A stretch of 64,000 bases of DNA, taken from NCBI RefSeq assembly GCF_016906535.1, contig NC_057375.1, positions 1,426,001 through 1,490,000 on the forward strand, read 5' to 3'. Under the pieces are notes generated by a model. It was given only the letters and a program-made list of their open reading frames with translations. It was not told where the DNA came from and searched no databases. This document shows positions 11,535 to 25,039 of this stretch, in pieces. Positions within the stretch are counted from its first letter, which is position 1. The number at the start of each line of letters is the position of its first letter. The stretch is from Rhizoctonia solani (Eukaryota; Basidiomycota; Agaricomycetes; Cantharellales; Ceratobasidiaceae). A program made the position numbers and the translations under genes.

Positions 11535-13603
11535 ACGGGCCTTATCTCACCACGGGGAGATTTTTTTATATAGATTTTTTTACTTGTTCATGTGTTCATT
11601 TTACGCACATAACTTGTGGTCGTATCTTTTGCTTATTGTGTCAGATCGATTAATAAGACTAGGACAATTAACATATGTTTAGTTGTGATCACTTTACAAG
11701 TGTAAAATTGAATTGGTTTGATTCTCATCTAGTTTCGCCTGCGTCACAGATGCGCGTGATGTCTCAGTCATACAGTCCGCGAATATTGATGCGGTATATC
11801 ATGATCATGGCATGTTAGGAATGCTGGTTGCTTTTTCAGTTTGGGGTTGGAAACGCATAATATCAATGCTGTCTGGTGATTGTTCATAGCCTGGTAAATA
11901 AAAATGTCGAACATTTGGGCAACTCGTAGATATACAATACTTATATGCACATACATGACATGGGACTTCCATAGCGCACCCAACAGAGCACTCAGCATCG
12001 AACCTCTCGTACAATTTGTTTGTAAGTTCATGAGGGTAGTTCCCGCACGCTGTCGGCTAATTGAAAATCTCGGAACCGACCGTATAAAGGGTGAACCCAC
12101 GTGTCGGAACAGGGATCGTTCTGCATTATACTGAGGCCAATCACATGGCATAACTACAAGGCAGGGTTGTATGGATTTATATCCGGTTTGGTCGTATCAA
12201 GCATCCACATTTCTGACCTTTGTTCGACCACGTTGTCATACTTGCCGTACCAGCCTTCTATTGCTTCCTGGAGTCAATACATGCACAGTATGCCCAGAAA
12301 TCAACCAACGGTTGTGTTCGTAGCTATAGGTGATGTAATCAATGTAAACGAGTTCCTTAAACTTGCATGACTGTAAATAAGCACATGCATGTATTTTTTT
12401 ATAACCGAGAGAATCCGACTTTTATGAAAATCTAGCTTGGTTTCCGAGAGTGATGATGAGCTATATAATCAACGAGACGGTGTATTCTACTTGATGCGTC
12501 CCATAGCATCAGGATTTGTCCCCGCGAGCTACGACTTATCCTTTTACAGGCACAAGTGCGTCTAAATGCGAGCAACATGTAGTCAGTGAACTTGTACCAG
12601 ACTTGTAGTGTGATTGTATTTGTAGTAGATACGACACTGGGTGCCCTCTGGCCCACATGGACGTAAAGTAGAGGGTGACAGCAATTTGTTCGGAAATGTA
12701 ACTAGTATCCCTAAGCCAATGGACAGCCCATCATGTGTCTGAGATCCTGTCACAAATGATGATACTAGTCCCTAGTGAGTTAGCACAGACCAGATGGTTG
12801 GCCGGTACAGATTTGTCGGTACTAACGAAACTGGTAGTATGTCGGTGTCTTCATTCTAACTCAACATATTATTCATTAGACTCCCAGGTTGTTTGCATGC
12901 ATCATATCTGGGGAGCTTGCCACGTTCCGGGGGACTTTTTAGGCTTTATATCCTTTCATTATGAGCCCATAACTTACTACTACGCACAAGCCCAAACCCG
13001 AGCCGCTGGACACAGATGTTTACTTGCACAGTTCCAATCGACAAAGGGCCCAACATAACTTAGGTGCTGAAAGAGTAAACGACAATATCGAAATGTTTCT
13101 GGTTATTTCTTAGCCACAAGAAGCCTATTCTCAAACTTACAATTATTTGGTTTGATTACAGTTGTTTGTTTCACATCGAGTTATCGGGAAAGTATATATG
13201 TCATTCATTTGGATTCAAAACACCTATTTTTATTATGCACATTATGGACTGGTCATGGGTATCTATCATATGGCCTCATTCGTAACTCTCATCACATCTC
13301 GCCTCATGCCTCCTATAAGGATAAGGCAACATTTAGCAAGTGGGTCCTCATTTAATTGAAACCAAATTCGTTACGAACCCCCCCCCCATGCCATGGATCT
13401 CCATTTGACAGCCAACCAAACAGCTTCGAGTCTAATCTGCGTTTGAGAGCTAGTCATGCTTCGGTCCTTGTCGCGATTGGCCAAGGGGATGACTCGATGT
13501 TGTTGAGCAACGGCCAGGGAGACCGATCATCTGTATTGCAAATTCATCAGGAGCTTGTATAAAGTTAGTGCACTCTGGTGGCGCCAACAGCACAATTTGA
13601 ACA
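11535..13603. other. Intergenic, no gene recognised
   Basis: About 2 kb with only short ORFs (12101-12370 +, 12735-13058 +, 11768-12151 -) that resemble nothing. A run of ten C residues lies at 13378-13387. The last 200 bp should hold the promoter of the F-box gene that starts at 13604. Confidence 0.5.
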
Positions 13604-14933
13604 ATGCCACCTCGTACTCGATCTGCGTATGTGGCCTTTCATATCAGCCTGGATTTTACTGAGATACTGCTGCAATATTTTAGGGCACGTACTACTTCTG
13701 TGACGACTCGTGCATCACTTGGCCGAATTCAATCAGCTCAGAAACCTCAAGGTTCGTAAGATGGGGGTTCCCACTTCTGTGGCAGACTGATAAATCTTCA
13801 GCCTATAAGTTTACAAGGCTGCTCTTCAATCCGGGAAAAAACGTAACTACCATCTGATTACCCTGTGGTTGGTTTTGGTCTCACTCACATTCCGATCCCG
13901 CCAGCGAAACATGCTCCCAAACCAAAACTGTGACCAGGGCAAGCCCAAAAGTAACAGTACAAGTAGAGCAGAAGAAGAAAAATGGGCCAGCACGTAGAGG
14001 GCTCGATACTCGGGTCCTGAATGTGATCCAAAAGGCAATCAAGCACCGGATATCAGATTGTTGGTAAACCTACCGGTGGGAAGTCCTAATTGAAGTACAG
14101 GCTCACTAGCAATTTGGAATGGCTTAATGCTAAAATCCCTGGTAGATCGCTCGATATGTCCACCCACTTGACCTCATTATGCTTCCCGGGTTAATAAATT
14201 CCTCCGTGAACTATTTATGGATAAGCGTTCAGCGTTGATTTGGCGTTCGGCCAGGGAGAACCATTTGGGCCTGCCAACGTGTCCTGACGAAGTATCCGAG
14301 CCACAGTATGCTGCCATGCTGTTCACGAAGAGGTGTTCTGTGAGTAAAATTAATATCTCAGATGATGGATATAGGATTATATTCCATGTGCCTTTTTCAG
14401 ACGTGCGGAGGCTACGCGCCCCGTGAAATGAACCCCATTTTGGTTGATTCGATTGTGTGGGAACTGCTGGTTAGAAGAGTAAGCGAAAAGATTCATTATT
14501 ATTTACTATGTGTATCTGATAGGACCCATTTAGACTATCGATGTCAATCGAGTGACGGATTCATCATTACTATCAGTAATAGAGGTATGCTATCCGCTGC
14601 TGATCAAAGTGCCGAGACTGATATTGGATGCAGGCCCCATTCCAGGCCAGAGTTATAATGGAGGTCGTGGTGCCTCTACAGCGAAGCCAGGGAGGTGAAA
14701 GCCAAACTCAATGAGCTGAACAAAGCTGGAGACGATGAAGCACTGCGAAAATGGAGGAGCGAACGACATAGCCTAGTTGAAGCAAAAAGGCGGGTACGTA
14801 CATAAGCAGGTGTCTAATTTGCCGAAGCTTAGGGTTATCATTCTGGCACAGAGCGCAGAGCCGCTCTCCACATGGCTTAGGAATAGGGATCGGGAGCAAG
14901 CAAAGAATCGGGATAGCCTAAAAGCCTTGCGTC
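13604..14933 (+). pseudogene. F-box protein gene, 5' part (exons 1 to middle), cut by transposon
   Basis: Start ATG at 13604 gives MPPRTRSA, joined across an intron to ARTTSVTTRASLGRIQSAQ, then to a basic segment PKVTVQVEQKKKNGPARRR-like. The F-box follows: DIRLLVNLPVEVLIEV, then SVNYLWISVQR / LRELFMDKRSALIWRSAREN. Next come a Cys-rich segment (TCGGYAPREMNPI; the second CxxC half is clear in the other copy as LIRLCGNCW) and YSEAREVKAKLNELNKAG. The reading breaks after KNRDSLKALR at 14930, where transposon sequence begins. The matching 3' part lies at 22513-25039. F-box proteins link substrates to SCF ubiquitin ligases through Skp1; the substrate here is unknown. Relative to the other copy, a C lost at about 13930 and further one-base indels break the frame. 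Confidence 0.7.
13912..14933 (+). repeat. Direct repeat, left copy (about 1.02 kb)
   Basis: This segment matches 22513-23538 almost base for base, in the same orientation. It begins at tgctcccaaacc and ends at aaaagccttgcgtc. I counted about ten one- to four-base indels and one clear substitution (gagcaag against gagcgag). The repeat covers the F-box and Cys-rich exons of the F-box gene and brackets the transposon at 14934-22512. Confidence 0.9.
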
Positions 14934-17900
14934 CCCTCGGCGACGATCCCCTTCCTTCTGACGCCAAAGAACCCCATCATGACAATTCATACATAGAAGA
15001 CAACAACAATGCTTATCCTTACCCAGACGATCCAGACGATCCAGACAATCCAGACGACGCTGAGGGAGTGCTTGTGGAGGAACCGCTGATCCGTGTCCCA
15101 CCGGATGATGCTGAGGGGCCTCCCAAGCCTCCTGGCAATGATGGAGGAGCCGGCATGCCTCTATTTGATGCTCACCCAACGCTACAGAACATTTACTTGC
15201 GCACTTGGGCTCAGTACGCGTTCAACCACGCAACACAAGACTCCGTTCAATCGATACTGGAGTCCCACAAATTGGCCCTTATGGCCAATGCACAATACCT
15301 CCCTCAGCCGCTTGTCGAAGAGATTCAACAAATGCCTCTTACTCTACGGTCGCTCGAGCGCCGGCTTGGAATGGACCACTCGGAACTAATCAGAATCTAT
15401 CCTGTGTGCCCCGAGCCACATGCGGCAGACGATACACCATGGAGCAACTTTACCAGCTCCCAATCCCCAGTGCACTCGGAACGTTGGAGAACGATGCCTT
15501 GGTATTCTATACACGGAGCGCTTACTTGCCGACGGTACTATCAAGCGTAGCCCCTCTAAATCATTTCCTTACATTCCTCTCCCTGCTGCTCTCGGTCGTC
15601 TATTGCCCCGGTATGTCCGAGCTTTGTCAACATTGGCGTAACACAACGATCCCAACAATGAGCCAACTGAGAACCAACAAGGCCTCGGGATCCTGTGGAG
15701 TGGTTCGACAACATGCCAGTCAACCAACGATTTTTGGACATCAGCGAGGGCTGGGGTTGGCGGGCGCATGCAACAGGACTCACCCGACAATTTATTAATG
15801 GCGAGTACGTGGATTTGCCCGCCGGAGATTTCCTTTATCTCTTGCGCGCTTACCTTTGCCTTACACTTAATGCCAATGGGTGAGTGCTTAACTTAAGGCT
15901 GTCTTTTCATTTAACATATATGCGCAGATACCAGGCAAACAAAGGCAATTACACTGCCGGTGGAAGTTATACTTCCAACGGAGTGTATATTGTTATCAAT
16001 AATCTTCCGTATTTCGAACGGAATTTATTCGAAAACACAATCCTTGCGATGGTATCCCTGGACCAACGGAGCCTAAGGACTACGCGTTCGACCAAATGAT
16101 GGAGCCTCTTATTGACGATTTAATTTCTCTGTCTAACGGCATGTCTAGTGATTAATTCTCACTTATATACTAAAGCTATACAGGCATTGAGTTGCCGGTG
16201 CACAATGCTGAGACGGGGAAATTCAAGACCGACGCGTTTACGCAAACTTATCCGTCCTTGTGGTCGATTGGATCGCGCGCATCAAGTGTATAGGTCATGT
16301 CGGCGCTACTTCCGAAGAAAACCACTGCCCGTATTGCAAGCTACGGGCCTGTTTGCTGTTGACCGAGCAAGGCTATGACCATGAAGGTGAGTGTGTAATT
16401 ATATATTCAAATTTGACTTAATTATTGGGTTCCATAGTTTATGATCTTTGCGAGCCTCACGAGCATTTACAGCATAAGCACCGCTGGCTCCGTGCGGAAT
16501 GGCACGAACGCAATGACATCCGTAATGAGACTGGTACAACATTTACCAAACTAGACCGGCTCTCCGGTTTCTATGCGTTCAATAATGCGCCCATCGATGT
16601 AATGCATTTGGTGGATCTTGGGCTTACCAAGGCTATTGAAAGTAAGTACATATACAAGCAAGGGATGCTCCGAAAACGTTTTCATTGGCAGCCTGCTGGT
16701 GAGACACCCAAGGCTCGCTACAATGCGTTTATCACGCGGACAATCTTCCCTCATTATTGTAGTCAGCTCCCTACCCATGTAGGTTTCCATATATTCAACA
16801 TATATATCACTAACATACATTAAAGGCCCAAGGGCTGAAGGGACGCGTCAAGGCCAAACAGCGGCGCCTCTTGCGCCTTATCATGGTTGGCTTGTACTTT
16901 GAGGCTTGGCACGTTGGTGACTCGATCCCAGATGGCAATATCCCTTGTGGAAGTGAGAGATCAAGCACTACAAGGCTCAGAAGGTCAATGCCAAGGCCTT
17001 CCGTAGACGTTGAAACCACGTCAACAACTTGAATGAAGGCGGACTCGACGAGGTTCTCCCTTGGCAAGAATTTATGCCATCACGAAACCCTTGCGACTGG
17101 TTTGCAAACTTATTAAGATTTGTATTGGGGCGACGCTCCTGACTCGACACCGAATCACTCAAGAGGAGGTTGAACAGGGTCGCCAGTTGCTTGAACAGGT
17201 TGGCACGGTGTTCACTGATATGAACATCAATCTCACTCCAAGCTTCCACGCCATCACACATTTGCCCGACCACCTCTACAAGTATGGAAGTGTTTACAAT
17301 ACTACCAACCGATTTGAGCGTGCAAACCGAATGCTTATCAACGTCAACAAGAACAGGCACGGGGGCGGAGAAATTGAAGCAACAATGGCAAAGGGATTTA
17401 TGCGTCGCGTTGAGTGTTACCGCTATGTAAGTCCCCCTCCAACTCTTATTCAGTTTACTAATACCTATTCAGATTAACAAATTACAATCAATTGAGGGGC
17501 CAACGGACGATGATATAGCAACAACAAAACTTTTGTTACAAGGCATGAGAGACGCCCCGGAACACGAAGTTCAGCGTGGCAGGCTTGATGCAATTCTGGC
17601 TGGAGACGCCCGATTTCTTGAACAAGGTAAATTCACGCATTTTTTTTATCTTGTGTGCACATAATAAATTGTTAAATTTATGTAGAGCACATTTGGTTGG
17701 CAACTGCCCCTGCCAAAGTTAACTTCAGAGATCACAAGCATCAAGCATATTATAATTATGGTGAGTATTGCAATAACCATTGTCCTATAGGTCTACACAA
17801 CGTCCACTTTTACGGATATGGCGCGCCGCCACCAGAAGGAATTCAAGTTCAACTTCATCCCAGCCGATCTACTCTTGCCTACCCTCACTTCCGTCGGTAC

Positions 17901-18288
17901 GGGGTCCGGTACGGCTCGGCAAACCATACGCGAGGGTTTGGTTCACGCTATGGTTATATTGATGACCAAACACCTGTTATCGTTCAGGGTATTTATGAGT
18001 CAACAGTGACCGTTCTGGGCGAGCAGTACAAATTTCTGGCTGTTATGATTCAGAAATTTGTTGCTCCGGCAGAACCGCCTGCCTTCCCGTGGAACCATTG
18101 GTACGTGTTTTCTGCCTCTAAGCTATTTACATGGTAATTGTAAAATCTAGGGATCATATTCTTGGGATCGGTGCATGGGTGTACCAAGAACTCCAGCCAG
18201 TGGAAGCAGTGCCAGCAAGTGCATTACTGGCCTTTTTGCGCTTTCCAATATTGAGATGTCATACGGGCACTGTCCTAGACGTCTGTAA
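14934..18288 (+). pseudogene. Tnp2-family transposase (Plavaka type), degraded
   Basis: DDE-type transposase of the CMC (CACTA/Plavaka) superfamily. In order: an acidic Asp-Pro tract (PYPDDPDDPDNPDDAEG, about 15020), FDAHPTLQNIYLRTWAQYA, MPLTLRSLERRLGMDHSELI, then LYTERLLADGTIKRSPSKSF after a frame change, WFDNMPVNQRFLDISEGWG, PAGDFLYLLRAYLCLTLNAN, DLCEPHEHLQHKHRWL, PIDVMHLVDLGLTKAIE (a hallmark Tnp2 block, about 16590), SFHAITHLPDHLYKYGSV, and RFERANRMLINVNKNRHGGG, the usual C-terminal block (about 17310). Later blocks are NFRDHKHQAYYNY and ILGIGAWVYQELQPVEAV, with a likely end near 18288. Several frame changes are not explained by introns. The native start is absent: the frame runs in directly from the F-box repeat. 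Confidence 0.75.
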
Positions 18289-19305
18289 GGACGTCGAGGG
18301 TGCGGGCGCTTGTGGCCGTGTGACTAATACAGTAAACCGCTTAGGGCGGCGACGAAGTACCCTACGACGACGAACTAACTAACTACGATGACCACGCGCT
18401 GTAAGGCGGCAGCGAGCTACGTATGTACAGCGAGAACGACGCTTAAGGCGTGTAACCAAGTATCTTACTGGGCTGTAAGGCCCTCGTACAATGTAGGATG
18501 CGACAAGAGGTAATCGACCTGGGTGTTACCATGGTCGGTTGGCCTCCTTATATATTACAGAGAGCAACTAATTACAAATACAGAATATGCAAATCCTAAT
18601 CCAATAAGAACCCCGTTCCGCAGTTGGCCTTACTCATGCATACGTGTCACTGACGTGTCATAGTGATGTCATCAGGTGGAGGTGGCTACGTGTGCTGAGG
18701 TAAGCGCGGATGGGGACGTGGCTCGGCGCTTAGCGTATGATATAAGCGCCGAAGTCACGTGATTGAAAATGTCGTCCGTTCGTCTTTGTTTAAATTTGAG
18801 AAAATGGGGATTAATTCCCTGGTATCAAGTGTGTCTACGACAGGCACTATTGGCTTACATTTTCAATGATAACAGTAAGTCCTTTTTATGCATATCTTGC
18901 TATCTAATCCTCGCAAACAGACAAGGCCCGACAATTTGAGGGACGAAGACAACATGGGCGTTGATGACTAAGAGAGTGTAACAGTAACTGGTGTACGTTT
19001 TTACTCCTTTTACACAATGATAAACGTTTGATATATAAGGCTTGTTACAGGTAGTTTAATTTAAAGCCACAATCATCCAGTTCCATTTAATTGAGCATAT
19101 AGTAGCCGAACAGGTCATTGAGAACTGGACGCGCACACGGTAATGCAGGAAAATATGCCGAGAAATGACAGGTGAGAAGAATAAATAGGGCGCAGTGCAC
19201 CAACAGCAGGAGATCAATGAGGAAAGACAATAAATAATACAGGTTGGAGACTGAGTTCATATTAGTGCATAAAAACAATAGGAGAATACGCACATAATAG
19301 GTGAG
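18289..19305. other. Internal transposon spacer with GC-rich repeats and a hairpin
   Basis: 18290-18490 is rich in short repeated units (gtaaggc, ttaaggcg, ctaactaacta). A perfect 8-bp inverted repeat GGCGCTTA/TAAGCGCC with a 10-nt loop lies at 18725-18750, directly before tcacgtga (18755-18762). 18900-19305 is the 3' flank of the minus-strand accessory gene. No further coding sequence is seen. Confidence 0.5.
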
Positions 19306-22040
19306 CTACGCACCCCGGAAAACAACTTTAACTTTCTTGACTTGTTGGGCGCGGCGCTTGCAAGGAAGTCGCAATGGATCAAGCCCAGGATTCCCATCGC
19401 CGTTGCCATTAACATTAACATTGCCGCTGCTACTTGCCACGCTTGATTTGCGCGCTTTGGTTGCCCAGGGTCTGGTGTTTGATGGTTGATTTGGCCCGGG
19501 TATATTTGGCTGCGCAGTCAGGCTGTATTGCGCGGCGGCGGCTTCTTGTTCATGAAGCTCTGGCGGTGGAGGCATACCGTTCAAGGGATACAAGCGACCA
19601 CTTGTCTCACCTTGAAGAGCAGGGTCTAAAATATAAAGATAAGTGTTTTACCTGACGCATAAATATTCAGCTTACCAATTGGAATATGGGCTTGAGTACC
19701 TCCGTTCCTGCCGGGCTGTCCATATAGATATCCAGGCTGAAAACCTGGTTGGTACCCTATCGGCAATACGTTGTGTGGCATATATGCAGCCCCGCCTAAC
19801 TGACCGTAGTGCGGGAACGCAGGCTGGGAAAATGTTGGTGCTTTTGGAGCCGCAGAGGCTACATCGGTGCCAAACCCCATTGACGCACCGGTGTGCATTG
19901 CTGTACCCCATGACTGACCAGACCCGGGGGCATGACTGGGGGCGACTAACAAAGCTGTAGGCACATCCAAAGGGGGCTGACACACTGCATTTCCAGGGGG
20001 ATGGCATATGTTGGCAGCAAGAAGAGTAGGTGTCGTAACTGGGGCCGCTTCAATGACCCGGCTCTGCGTAGCTAACGTAATAGAGGGAACAGGGGTATCG
20101 GCTGGAGCGTTGGACCTGGAAGGCAAGGGGGAAGGCAAGGGGGATGGCAATGGCAATGGCGATGGCAATGGCAAAGGGGACAGATACTCCCGTGGTTGAG
20201 GTGTGTACCGATCAATAAATTTGTCGAATTTTTCTTCTTGGGGATTTCGTCTAGGTCCGAGTCGATTCGCTTAGCCGATTGTTTGCATGCTTTTGGGTTT
20301 GTGCGTTCCCATTCCTTGTCAACAGCCCAAGCCGGTATCTTCCCTTTCTTGAGCTTAGGTACGTCGTTATTGACCTTATTGAAATCCCGGCGCGTGACCT
20401 TTTGATTTCCGCATTGTTTCTTGTTGTCTTTGTATGCGATATCAAGCGCCCCCAAAAATTGGACAAGCTGAGCAAAGGTTAGTGTTCGTAACTCAAACCC
20501 TAAATAGTTACTTGTTACTAACCTTTGCGACTCGGTACTCGGGTTCCTGAACAACACGGCGGCTCTGATCGTCCGGGTCTGAATATTCGGACGATTGAAA
20601 ACCGGGATCGCCGGTAAATTTGAATCCCCCGACTTCAAGTCCCGATCCTTTGAGCGCTGCCATGCGACTTTTAGCTTTCTGCCACGAGCGTAAGTATAAT
20701 TACTCAATGGAAAAAGCTTGGTACTCACCGCATCCTTCCGGGATTGACGTCTGTTCAACATCCTGCGTTTATCCGACCACTCCCGCCCTTTGCCTGCATC
20801 TCCCTGGTACTTCTTCCAAACACGAAGCATCGTCGCATAGACCCCATTTTTAACGACAACTCTCCATTCGGCATCGGTCACAGACTCCAAGTACTCGACG
20901 TCGGAAGGGTCCCAGCGGCTCTGGTCGCGTATCACATCTATGGCGCTCGTCCCCCATTTTTCCCACTCTTTGTCGAACCCACGATCAAAATGCGGGACAA
21001 GAATCCCGTTAACAAACCAGACAGCCTTGCCAGCGTCGTCGAACTTTGCTACGAGCTCGCCGGCATCATTTGCTTGATTTAAGGCGCATAAATCGAGCAT
21101 GGATTTGAGGGCGTGGCTCTATTGTAACAGTAAGTCCTTATTCTAAAACTAGCTGATAAACTTACAGATATAACCATTTGCTGGTGTCGCTCAAATCCGG
21201 CGTCTTTCTCAGCCGACGACTTTGCGCGTTTCTGGCTCCTGGAAGTATTGGCGCAGGAGGATGCATGGGATAACTCGGAACTTCTGATTTTGGCTGAAAT
21301 AGGACCTATAAAGCTATGTAAGCGGCTGAATCCTGTGTTAGTACTGACAAGTCTTATACCTTTTCGCCTTCGAGGAGAACCCAACACTTCGTCGCCTCCT
21401 TCCTTGTCGTCCGAGTTTGAGTCCGCCTCCGAACCACCCTCGCCTCCGCCTTCGTCCTCGCTCTCGTCATTTCTCTGCGAACTCTCTGTGTCTTTGGCGG
21501 AGTTCGTGCCCACGACCTTGCTAAACACCGGTCTACTCGTTGTAACTAGCATACATGGTAAGCAAAACACGAAATATAATCACATTAGATACTTACTACT
21601 CCCCTCCGTCGGAGAATCCGAGTCTTCGACATCGGCATCGCATATACCTCGTAGGTTGTGCCTTGGCGCGGAAGCTACGATCTTTAGGTAAGCAAAGTAG
21701 TCGGTACTTGTGTGCGACTCACCAGGCTCCAAGTCTAGGACTCGAACGTTCTTCTTGAACACAAACAAGCTCCTTCGCGTACCATTCTTGCGCCCAGTAC
21801 CTGGCGTTGGGTAAGCAAAGGATGGGGGGACATCTTGGGACCGGGTAAGCCTCGATTCATGCGCATACATTTGTACTTACGTCTCCCTAACCCCAATGCT
21901 GAACTTGATTCTCGGTCAATGCTTGCGCGCCCAGGGTCGCGCAAACGCACTCGCGAAGTCGACGGTGATCTAGAGGCCAACCTTCGGGGGGCGCTAGGTG
22001 GTAGCACGGGGTCTTTGGATATAGATGCCCTTTCAGACAT
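19306..22040 (-). CDS. Transposon accessory protein, Pro-rich tail
   Basis: Read downward from the ATG at 22038-22040 (MSERASISKDPVLPPSAPRR), the first exon is basic and Ser-rich. Short exons follow: FAYPTPGTGRKNGTRRSLF, then an acidic exon (SEDEGGGEGGSEADSNSDDK, about 21430). The main exon is 21100-20200: LVPHFDRGFDKEWEKWGTS, RWDPSDVEYLESVTDAEWR, KLKVAWQRSKDRDLKSGD, FELRTLTFAQLVQFLGALD and IPAWAVDKEWERTNPKACK. At about 20235-20245 a one-base shift joins it to EEKFDKFIDRYTPQPREYL and a Ser/Pro repeat tail (LPLPSPLPLPSP). The last exon ends KKVKVVFRGA with the stop at 19306-19308. I do not recognise the family. Its place beside tnp2 suggests a second transposon-encoded protein (a TnpA-like DNA binder is one idea), but no motif proves this. 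It could also be a captured host gene. Confidence 0.6.
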
Positions 22041-22512
22041 CGCGACGTAACAAGTGTACTGAGGAATCCCGAGGTTGATGGTAGTAGGTGTTTGGGTGAG
22101 TACCCTGAAATTTGCAGCTTCTGACGCACTGACCAGCATACCAAACAACGCGCACACGTCCCCCCTTCTGGGAGAGGGTGGGCGCATCCTATTTAGGTGT
22201 TGAAGAGTAATGGATTGAAATGTAACGATGAAACAATTATGTATGTAATCAAATAAATATATTCCATTTATCCCAAAGAAACGAAAGGCCCAAAGTGTAT
22301 ATATACATCGGGCACAGGCATCGCAGAGATATTGTCCAGCAATGGACCAGCATTTGTATCCCGACAATCGACAAATGCTGGACAGCCTGGTCTATTACTG
22401 TACCGAACGCGACAAAAAAGTCCAGTTCATGCCTCGACAAAGGCTGGACACGTGCCGTCCAAGTCCCGTGCCCGCCGCACACCCTTTGTCGAAAAGGGGG
22501 TGAAGTCCTGTG
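22041..22512. repeat. Right subterminal repeat region of the transposon
   Basis: Contains nested inverted repeats. TGTCCAGCA (22333-22341) pairs with TGCTGGACA (22376-22384), and CCAGCATTTGT (22347-22357) with ACAAATGCTGG (22371-22381). Related units recur at about 22410 (cgacaaaaaagtcca) and 22435 (cgacaaaggctggaca), and a palindrome-like ccctttgtcgaaaaggg lies near 22484-22500. This is the arrangement expected of transposase-binding subterminal repeats. The stretch also holds the promoter of the accessory gene. Confidence 0.6.
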
Positions 22513-23538
22513 TGCTCCCAAACCAAAACCTGTGACCAGGGCAAGCCCAAAAGTAACAGTACAAGTAGAGCAGAAGAAGAAAAATGGGCCAGCACGTAAG
22601 AGGGCTCGATACTCGGGTCCTGAATGTGATCCAAAAGGCAATCAAGCACCGGATATCAGATTGTTGGTAAACCTACCGGTGGAAGTCCTAATTGAAGTAC
22701 AGGCTCACTAGCAATTTGGAATGGCTTAATGCTAAAATCCCTGGTAGATCGCTCGATATGTCCACCCACTTGACCTCATTATGCTCTCCCGGGTTAATAA
22801 ATTCCTCCGTGAACTATTTATGGATAAGCGTTCAGCGTTGATTTGGCGTTCGGCCAGGGAGAACCATTTGGGCCTGCCAACGTGTCCTGACGAAGTATCC
22901 GAGCCACAGTATGCTGCCATGCTGTTCACGAAGAGGTGTTCTGTGAGTAAATTAATATCTCAGATGGATATAGGATTATATTCCATGTGCCTTTTTCAGA
23001 CGTGCGGAGGCTACGCGCCCCGTGAAATGAACCCCATTTTGTTGATTCGATTGTGTGGGAACTGCTGGTTAGAAGAGTAAGCGAAAAGATTCATTATTAT
23101 TTACTATGTGTATCTGATAGGACCCATTTAGACTAGTCGATGTCAATCGAGTGACGGATTCATCATTACTATCAGTAATAGGAGGTATGCTATCCGCTGC
23201 TGATCAAAGTGCCGAGACTGATATTGGATGCAGGCCCCATTCCAGGCCAGAGTTATAAATGGAGGTCGTGGTGCCTCTACAGCGAAGCCAGGGAGGTGAA
23301 AGCCAAACTCAATGAGCTGAACAAAGCTGGAGACGATGAAGCACTGCGAAAATGGAGGAGCGAACGACATAGCCTAGTTGAAGCAAAAAGGCGGGTACGT
23401 ACATAAGCAGGTGTCTAATTTGCCCGAAGCTTACGGGTTATATCATTCTGGCACAGAGCGCAGAGCCGCTCTCCACATGGCTTAGGAATAGGGATCGGGA
23501 GCGAGCAAAGAATCGGGATAGCCTAAAAGCCTTGCGTC
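22513..23538 (+). repeat. Direct repeat, right copy (about 1.03 kb)
   Basis: Partner of 13912-14933 in the same orientation. In this copy the F-box gene frame is better preserved: APKPKPVTRASPKVTVQ, LVNLPVEVLIEV, and CSTCGGYAPREMNPILLIRL are continuous. The 3' exons of the gene follow without interruption, whereas transposon follows the left copy. Confidence 0.9.
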
Positions 23539-25039
23539 AGAATGAGTAAGTACGAAAACATGATTGGGTTATAGAGACTGATAGAGTTGAATTGGTTATA
23601 GAATTGAATCACGCCTAATCGAAATTGGGTGGGAAAAAGGTGATCTTGTGTGTTATGATGGCTGGAGGCGCAAGCAGTGGAAATCCATGGTGCATACCAC
23701 GAAGAGAGTCACCGATAAAGGCAAGCTACTTGTCGTTTCAAGAACAAACCATGGGCATTTACTGAATAAAGCGTAGTTTGGGACAATCTTTTGCCACGCC
23801 TTCTGGGACATCTAGAAATTAATCGTAACCAACGGCTTGAGAGGGAGCAGAAGCAGCGTCGGTCAGCGCGTCTCCATGCAATACACCGTTGGATTTCAGA
23901 AGTGAGAGCCGTACTCCCGGTATATGCTCGAGCAATACCTCATGATGGAGATTGCTTAGCGATCAAGGGAAATTTTTCTGTACTTGGTATGGTACCTTTG
24001 TGTCTCGTCGCTGTCTTTCCTTTACTAATGCACAGTTTATTTTCTGTTTTCAGAAAATCATGCATCATTGCATCAGGCCTTCCTAGGGCCTCAGAAGTTT
24101 ACACATGGCCAGAATGCACACCGCTCATTGAGAATGATATGCTCCACGAACAATTCTTGAACGAGTTTGAAGCGAAGAAAACCGGTTTACAGCAATTGAT
24201 CGGAGAGTGGAGGCATAGACTTGAAACACAGCTAATCGCGGCATTACCCAAAGGAACTCTGCGACCGACTTTGGAATCTTCGCCTTTCACTATGACCATC
24301 CATACTACTGAGATCGTTCAGCCAGTAGATGTCCTTCCGGGGGATATACGCAAGCTTCTCCGAGCGGATGCCATTTTCACTACATCGCATATTCATGATC
24401 ATTCTCAAGTACACTGGTATCCCCATAGCTTCGACCATTTCGCAGGCGATATAACTAAAATGATTTTTTATGATCATGCCTGCAACATTTCACGAGCACT
24501 TTTAAGTGTCCTAGGTATTCCCGACGCTACTTACTTGCATGTCAAAGCAATGGGGAAGGCTTTCCGATGCGGAAGGTGTCCCCAGGCAACAGCTCCTAAC
24601 TATGACTGGATGGACATGGTGAGTGGTTTCATCACTATGAGATATAAAAACAAACTCGTCGGTTAAACTTAGGTTTGCCATTATCTGGAATCAATCCGAC
24701 TGTGGGCGTCTAACGCTAGGCAACGTCAAGTCCGGTCTGCCAAGGACTTTGTATACATCTGCACACACGACATTGATGCAAATAACTCGTCCCGTCCACT
24801 TGTATGGATACCAGCCCAAGATGATCTTCCCACTCAACCCGCTCTCTTTTCTTGGAGCTGGTCCAAGTGTATGCCGTGTCAAAGAGTCGGTCTTGGCACC
24901 AGAATCCCTACCCAAGCTATCGTGGAACATGTACGCTATGTGTAAGTCCCTGCTCTATACATCTGCCCTCGTTTCTAACCTCGTCGCGAATAGGCACTTA
25001 ATTGAGGAGCCGGAATTAGGCATTCACTACCAACATTAG
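22513..25039 (+). pseudogene. F-box protein gene, middle and 3' part
   Basis: This is the continuation of the F-box gene that begins at 13604. The repeat copy supplies LLVNLPVEVLIEV (F-box), SRVNKFLRELFMDKRSALIW, then a zinc-binding-like pair TCGGY and RLCGNCW, and YKWRSWCLYSEAREVKAKL. Unique exons follow: RLIEIGWEKGDLVCYDGW, LLPRLLGHLEINRNQRLERE, EVRAVLPVYARAIPHDGDC, RPTLESSPFTMTIHTTEIV, WYPHSFDHFAGDITKMIFYD, ISRALLSVLGIPDATYLHVK, FRCGRCPQATAPNYDWMDM and a last exon ending LIEEPELGIHYQH with TAG at 25037-25039. This is the common agaricomycete F-box layout: F-box, CxxC pair, long C-terminal region with a late CxxC. The native first exons are missing here because the transposon end lies directly upstream. 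The gene would need removal of 14934-22512 and one repeat copy to be whole. The bases between 24050 and 24300 need a frame change. Confidence 0.75.

Follow-up and report, generated by a model that had tools for sequence, protein, structure and literature searches.

The window analysed here is a stretch of 64,000 nucleotides of Rhizoctonia solani, taken to be from XN, an AG1-IA isolate, and corresponds to C6:1426001-1490000 of the genome searched (40,703,773 bases in 16 contigs). In the deposited sequence, a gene is split by a transposon that lies between two direct copies of a 1-kb segment of the gene itself (Table 1). The 5' exons are found to the left of the first copy (copy A) and the 3' exons to the right of the second (copy B), an arrangement proposed in an earlier sequence-only reading and borne out by a three-frame reading of the DNA and by the related proteins.

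Table 1. Features of the split F-box locus, in window coordinates
Feature	Position	Strand	Description	Basis
F-box gene 5' exons	13605..13911	+	MPPRTRSA.., ..RTTSVTTRASLGRIQSAQKPQ.., ..AKH; left of the insertion point	Three-frame reading against P0002
Copy A	13912..14933	+	1-kb gene segment; several indels break the frame	blastn and comparison of frames by hand
TGC	13912..13914	+	Left occurrence of the inferred 3-bp target site; gene sequence unbroken here	Right terminus followed by TGC; 3-bp duplications of relatives
Gene/transposon joint	14933..14934	.	Aberrant; 2 bp (TC) common to gene and transposon	Alignment with copy B and the C13 element
CACTA/EnSpm-type element	14934..22512	+	7,579 bp present, ~963 bp of left end missing; full length ~8.5 kb	
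Tnp2-type transposase gene	14936..18267	+	Frame-broken; window-only deletions mainly at 15.4-16.2 kb	tblastn with P0026, P0028, P0029; three-way alignment
Solo LTR	18271..18842	.	TG..CA, 572 bp; lies within the CACTA element, flanked by GGCAC as its 5-bp target duplication	
348-aa ORF	20072..21118	-	Candidate second gene of the CACTA element	
Right terminal inverted repeat	22440..22512	+	Intact, 73 bp, ends ..CCTGTG	Same in C13, C11 and C8 copies, inverted at their left ends
Copy B	22513..23538	+	Gene segment; matches related F-box proteins at 8/8 coding indel sites	
F-box gene 3' part	23539..25039	+	Right of copy B	

Its related proteins identify the split gene as an F-box gene. P0003, with 63% identity at 100% query cover, carries PF12937 at 26.3 bits (cut-off 24.3); P0002 and P0001 themselves gave no Pfam match. 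P0002 (RHS04_00139) is an R. solani protein with a gene-tag prefix other than that of XN; the prefix RHS04 does not appear in the text of PMC8028249, a paper on four AG1-IA isolates. Its N-terminus, MPPRTRSAARTTSVTTRASLGRIQSAQKPQAKHAPKPKP, was compared with the three-frame reading of the window, and the protein runs uninterrupted from MPPRTRSA through QKPQAKHAPKPKP to, later on, SLKALRQNEIESRL. Within it, AKHAPK and KALRQNE bridge both borders of copy A and, being continuous there, P0002 extends across the insertion point (AKH/APK) as well as the end of copy A (LR/QNE). Judged from the protein alone, the P0002 gene model may hide a transposon within an intron. P0001 (RhiTH_005891) starts inside the repeated segment. 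When P0001 and P0002 were compared with the forward strand by tblastn (>70% identity), copy A gave one 52-residue match and the remaining matches fell in copy B and the 3' part. The model deposited for XN, RhiXN_05888 (P0011, 410 aa), begins within copy B, and its aligned part is 100% identical to the window gene. It is shorter than related F-box proteins, e.g. P0003-P0005 (699-709 aa), and no mention of it was found in the literature searched.

The transposon is assigned to the CACTA/EnSpm group from its termini, the 3-bp target duplications of its family and the presence of Tnp2 in its relatives. The stretch 14934-22512 gave at least 58 match rows in the genome, about 40 of which belong to the nested LTR; a number of these LTR rows are paired ~5.8 kb apart. 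Copies on C13 and C11 extend ~963 bp further to the left and end there in a 73-bp inverted copy of the right end seen in the window. Inverted repeats of 73 bp, CACAGG..CCTGTG, bound the outer and inner C13 copies and the C8 copy at both ends; the window element has a right end of the same kind and lacks the left terminus of the C13 and C11 copies, so the description of it as an element with a right end only holds good. All three independent complete copies are flanked by 3-bp target duplications, namely CAT (C13 outer), GAG (C13 inner) and ACG (C8), the C11 copy being the near-identical counterpart of the C13 outer copy and not counted as independent. A pattern search of the genome for the termini found 18 matches at no more than 3 mismatches, against 2 for the reversed control. 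Eleven of the 18 belong to the C13 and C8 copies, their C11 counterparts and the window; for each of the other seven only one end was recognised in ~9 kb, and no duplication was readable.

P0026, P0028 and P0029, relatives that apparently come from C13/C11, match the transposase region in several frames by tblastn. They carry PF02992 (Transposase family tnp2) at 29.2, 36.1 and 36.8 bits (cut-off 28.6); no Pfam match was obtained for four transposase pieces from the window or for four pieces from relatives. Pfam was uninformative on the pieces; the CACTA/EnSpm transposase was assigned from the protein search and from Tnp2 in the relatives. The sole Pfam match of the 348-aa ORF was DUF488-N3a at 19.9 bits, below the cut-off of 27. 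In the excerpts available of PMC12730594, EnSpm elements have CAC..GTG ends and 3-bp duplications, and Plavaka elements have either TGT..ACA ends with 2 bp or CATCA..TGATG ends with 2-3 bp. The window family thus resembles fungal CACTA/EnSpm (Tnp2) elements in its 5'-CAC..GTG-3' termini, its 3-bp target duplications and the Tnp2-type transposase of its members in this genome, although in the window copy itself the left terminus is missing, the transposase frame is broken and a solo LTR is nested. Among the families modelled in Pfam is Plavaka, which was absent from the Pfam matches of the transposase pieces and relatives. Plavaka does belong to an EnSpm-related superfamily, and PlavakaB may also give 3-bp duplications according to the same excerpts (PMC12730594), but the earlier label ‘Plavaka-like’ has to be given up: the termini are CACAGG..CCTGTG, not TGT..ACA or CATCA..TGATG, and the relatives match PF02992.

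The two sides of the element differ. After the right terminus the sequence continues with TGCTCCC; the gene itself has ACATGCTCCC, from which we infer a normal insertion with TGC as its target, the TGC being read on the right side only. On the left side, the gene continues through TGC to a total of 1,022 bp before it joins the element around base 964 of the latter; ~963 bp of the element's left end are replaced there by 1,022 bp of uninterrupted gene. Because the border of the repeat is the insertion point itself, an earlier tandem duplication is disfavoured. Duplication of the gene segment first and insertion of the transposon later, one of the explanations offered in the sequence-only reading, would supply the two copies, but the start of copy B and the intact right terminus coincide exactly, at the position predicted by the 3-bp rule; the older copy would have to end at that point by chance, with the left terminus still to be lost. 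We regard this order of events as extremely improbable. The repeat had also been judged too long for a target duplication, and correctly so: this element family makes 3-bp ones, which rules out a long target duplication.

Self-comparison of the window by blastn (word 16, E<=1e-10) detected one repeat only, copies A and B, at the position given in the sequence-only reading. The copies are identical at 1015 of 1032 positions, with 1 mismatch and 13 gap openings (16 gap bases), an identity that excludes chance likeness. A search with 13300-15100 over the 16 chromosomes, without the unplaced scaffolds, located the segment at two sites only, A and B; all six first-look candidates were scored, and the other four matches to this query are transposon sequence starting at 14929. 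The excerpts of PMC7884421 give the size of the XN assembly as 41,104,060 bp, of which 400,287 bp are outside the 16 chromosomes. Presence at only two sites among the 16 chromosomes rules out the segment as a part of the transposon, whether as a captured gene or as LTR-like ends.

The differences between the copies comprise 13 indels and 1 substitution, with eight of the indels in coding exons and five in introns. At all eight coding indels, read by hand, copy B agrees with the related proteins and copy A does not; some of the proteins compared are gene models and P0011 comes from the same assembly, and P0003 and P0004 are independent. The frame-breaking indels are present in copy A and absent from copy B. 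Ordinary divergence after an old duplication is ruled out by the 13:1 ratio of indels to substitutions. The 172.5 kb of fetched blocks include six further direct-repeat rows (>=300 bp, >95% identity, both copies on the same strand), which together show 24 substitutions and 1 gap opening; about three of the six are independent, since the C11 rows mirror those of C13. Comparison of the window transposon with C13a gave 184 substitutions and 20 gap openings over four of five pieces, and Fisher's test of A/B against these gave P 3e-11; the fifth piece, left out of the test, has 9 substitutions and 0 gap openings. Over 48,966 bp, the near-identical C13/C11 duplicates differ by 16 substitutions and have 53 gap openings, and their indels are taken as residual assembly error in near-identical duplicates. 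At the C13/C11 rate, 1.1 gap openings would be expected in 1,022 bp and 13 are observed (P 2e-10), a density ~12 times as high. An indel-dominated kind of difference is common in the XN assembly, and only the density of A/B is exceptional.

Indels are also found in the transposon next to copy A. A three-way alignment shows nine deletions confined to the window copy in 14934-16502, or 11 if two sites at which the relatives have different bases are included, four in 16498-18271 and one in those parts of 19424-22512 that were compared. The contrast between left and right, including the two extra sites, has a Fisher P of 0.003 for 14934-16502 and of 0.008 for 14934-18271. The C13 outer copy has no private indel bases in 14934-16502 or 16498-18271 and three in 19424-21200. 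The 484 bp directly after the joint (14934-15417) hold no window-only indels. There is a drop in sequence quality around the joint, except in 14934-15417, and true decay may account for part of the deletions in the transposon. Just to the left of copy A lies neither a duplicate nor a long coding sequence, and the comparison of quality covers copy A and the sequence to its right.

Heterozygous or heterokaryotic genomes can yield false duplications on assembly. We consider it likely that the 1-kb repeat marks a switch of the assembly from a transposon-free to a transposon-bearing haplotype. Part of the XN nuclei would carry an uninterrupted F-box gene, and in other nuclei a complete CACTA element of ~8.5 kb, with its nested solo LTR, would have inserted by ordinary cut-and-paste at ..ACATGC^TCCC.., duplicating TGC. 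The assembly would track the transposon-free version from the left to 1,022 bp beyond the insertion point and would then jump into the transposon version ~963 bp inside the element, so that the gene segment would be shown again after the element's right end. On the simplest account, the transposon within the F-box gene is an ordinary heterozygous CACTA insertion, and copy A is probably a low-depth consensus from the transposon-free haplotype.

The way in which XN was assembled is consistent with such a switch. In the excerpts available, PMC7884421 describes XN as multinucleate, lists for it a heterozygosity value of 2.56 (the unit being lost in the text), higher than any other in its Table 1, and reports ~11 GB of long reads for an estimated genome of 41.8 Mb, figures which by simple arithmetic amount to ~260-fold depth. 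Contigs from HGAP4, Canu and MECAT were compared with MUMmer, scaffolded and polished with Pilon (PMC7884421). A rate of 1.3% indels over 1 kb at ~260-fold depth suggests very few reads, as at the end of a contig or from a rare molecule. The multinucleate state of XN and the merging of contigs from three assemblers therefore favour an assembly switch, as do the excess and density of indels between A and B, the agreement of copy B, not A, with related proteins at every coding indel and the concentration of window-only deletions near the joint. Further support comes from P0002, which carries another R. solani gene-tag prefix and spans the empty site, and from the similar lengths of the skipped (963) and added (1,022) sequence. 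Like known false duplications, the window has near-identical neighbouring copies, one of which is poor in quality, and comes from a multinucleate isolate whose assembly is unphased; it differs from them in that the copies flank an insertion.

Other observations weaken the assembly switch. The end of a contig should be poor up to the joint, though 14934-15417 is free of window-only indels. The C13/C11 duplicates are also indel-dominated, which leaves only the density of A/B to stand out, and the C13 copies too have private indels farther to the right. A real copy A could stay unpolished if short reads preferred the cleaner copy B. Finally, the TC common to both sides of the joint also fits end joining.

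The last of these points bears on a real event, an aberrant gap repair at the CACTA insertion, which would produce the same order of parts. A complete CACTA element with its TGC duplication would later suffer a break at or near its left end, followed by resection to ~963 bp inside the element; with an empty allele as template, the end of the gene at this flank would then be extended to 1,019 bp beyond the insertion point and joined to the element via 2-bp homology. The seamless passage of copy A from the flank through TGC and the TC shared at the joint are in keeping with this, and PMC8277862, in the excerpts available, describes gap filling that captures nearby filler DNA at terminal-inverted-repeat elements. 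Gap repair predicts, however, that A should be almost identical to B save for allelic SNPs; the single substitution fits this prediction, the 13 indels do not, and the indels in the adjoining transposon are given no reason. Abortive gap repair products of DNA transposons share with the window a one-ended element and filler copied from nearby DNA, but repair does not account for the richness in indels that the filler in the window shows against its supposed template. The ‘gap repair or template switch’ of the sequence-only reading would also give the observed structure; the 13 indels/kb, which may be sequencing errors or mutations, make a haplotype switch likelier, and we rate gap repair as possible, if rather improbable. 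The same order of parts would again result if a homologue with the transposon and one without it had undergone an illegitimate crossover. In the excerpts of PMC12774589, nuclei within one isolate can differ, and two haplotypes are reported in each of two AG-8 isolates. The objections from the indels apply here as they do to gap repair, a non-homologous exchange between homologues is required in addition, and we hold such a crossover to be very unlikely.

The two kinds of explanation have different consequences. If the repeat is an artefact of a haplotype switch, the deposited chromosome misrepresents the locus and the truncated model RhiXN_05888 is partly a product of assembly; unphased long-read assemblies of multinucleate fungi can then make a heterozygous transposon insertion look like a long direct repeat. 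A real repeat would represent one-sided gap repair as it occurs in nature at a CACTA element of a fungus, and might give rise to gene disruption that is reversible between nuclei. The proposal of a reversible disruption presupposes a real repeat, and it gained no support from the analysis. That the structure is real, that one-sided repair copied 1 kb from the empty allele of another nucleus and that the repeats are collapsible by homologous recombination, so that nuclei of one mycelium could regain the gene, is in our view unlikely.

The C8 copy (C8:402084-405688; L032) is a short member of the family, 3.6 kb long, with both ends and an ACG duplication, and the left part of its interior cannot be aligned with other copies. 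The C13 block, fetched without C13:48001-64000, contains a nest of ~60 kb in which an outer CACTA element (C13:21775-82215, CAT) encloses a reversed CACTA element (GAG) and LTR elements. The two blocks that hold the nest, C13:18001-84000 and C11:2015001-2082000 (L022-L031), lie at chromosome ends and align in opposite orientation over 29.9 kb and 19.0 kb, where they are 99.8-99.9% alike, a likeness due either to a recent subtelomere exchange or to another assembly effect.
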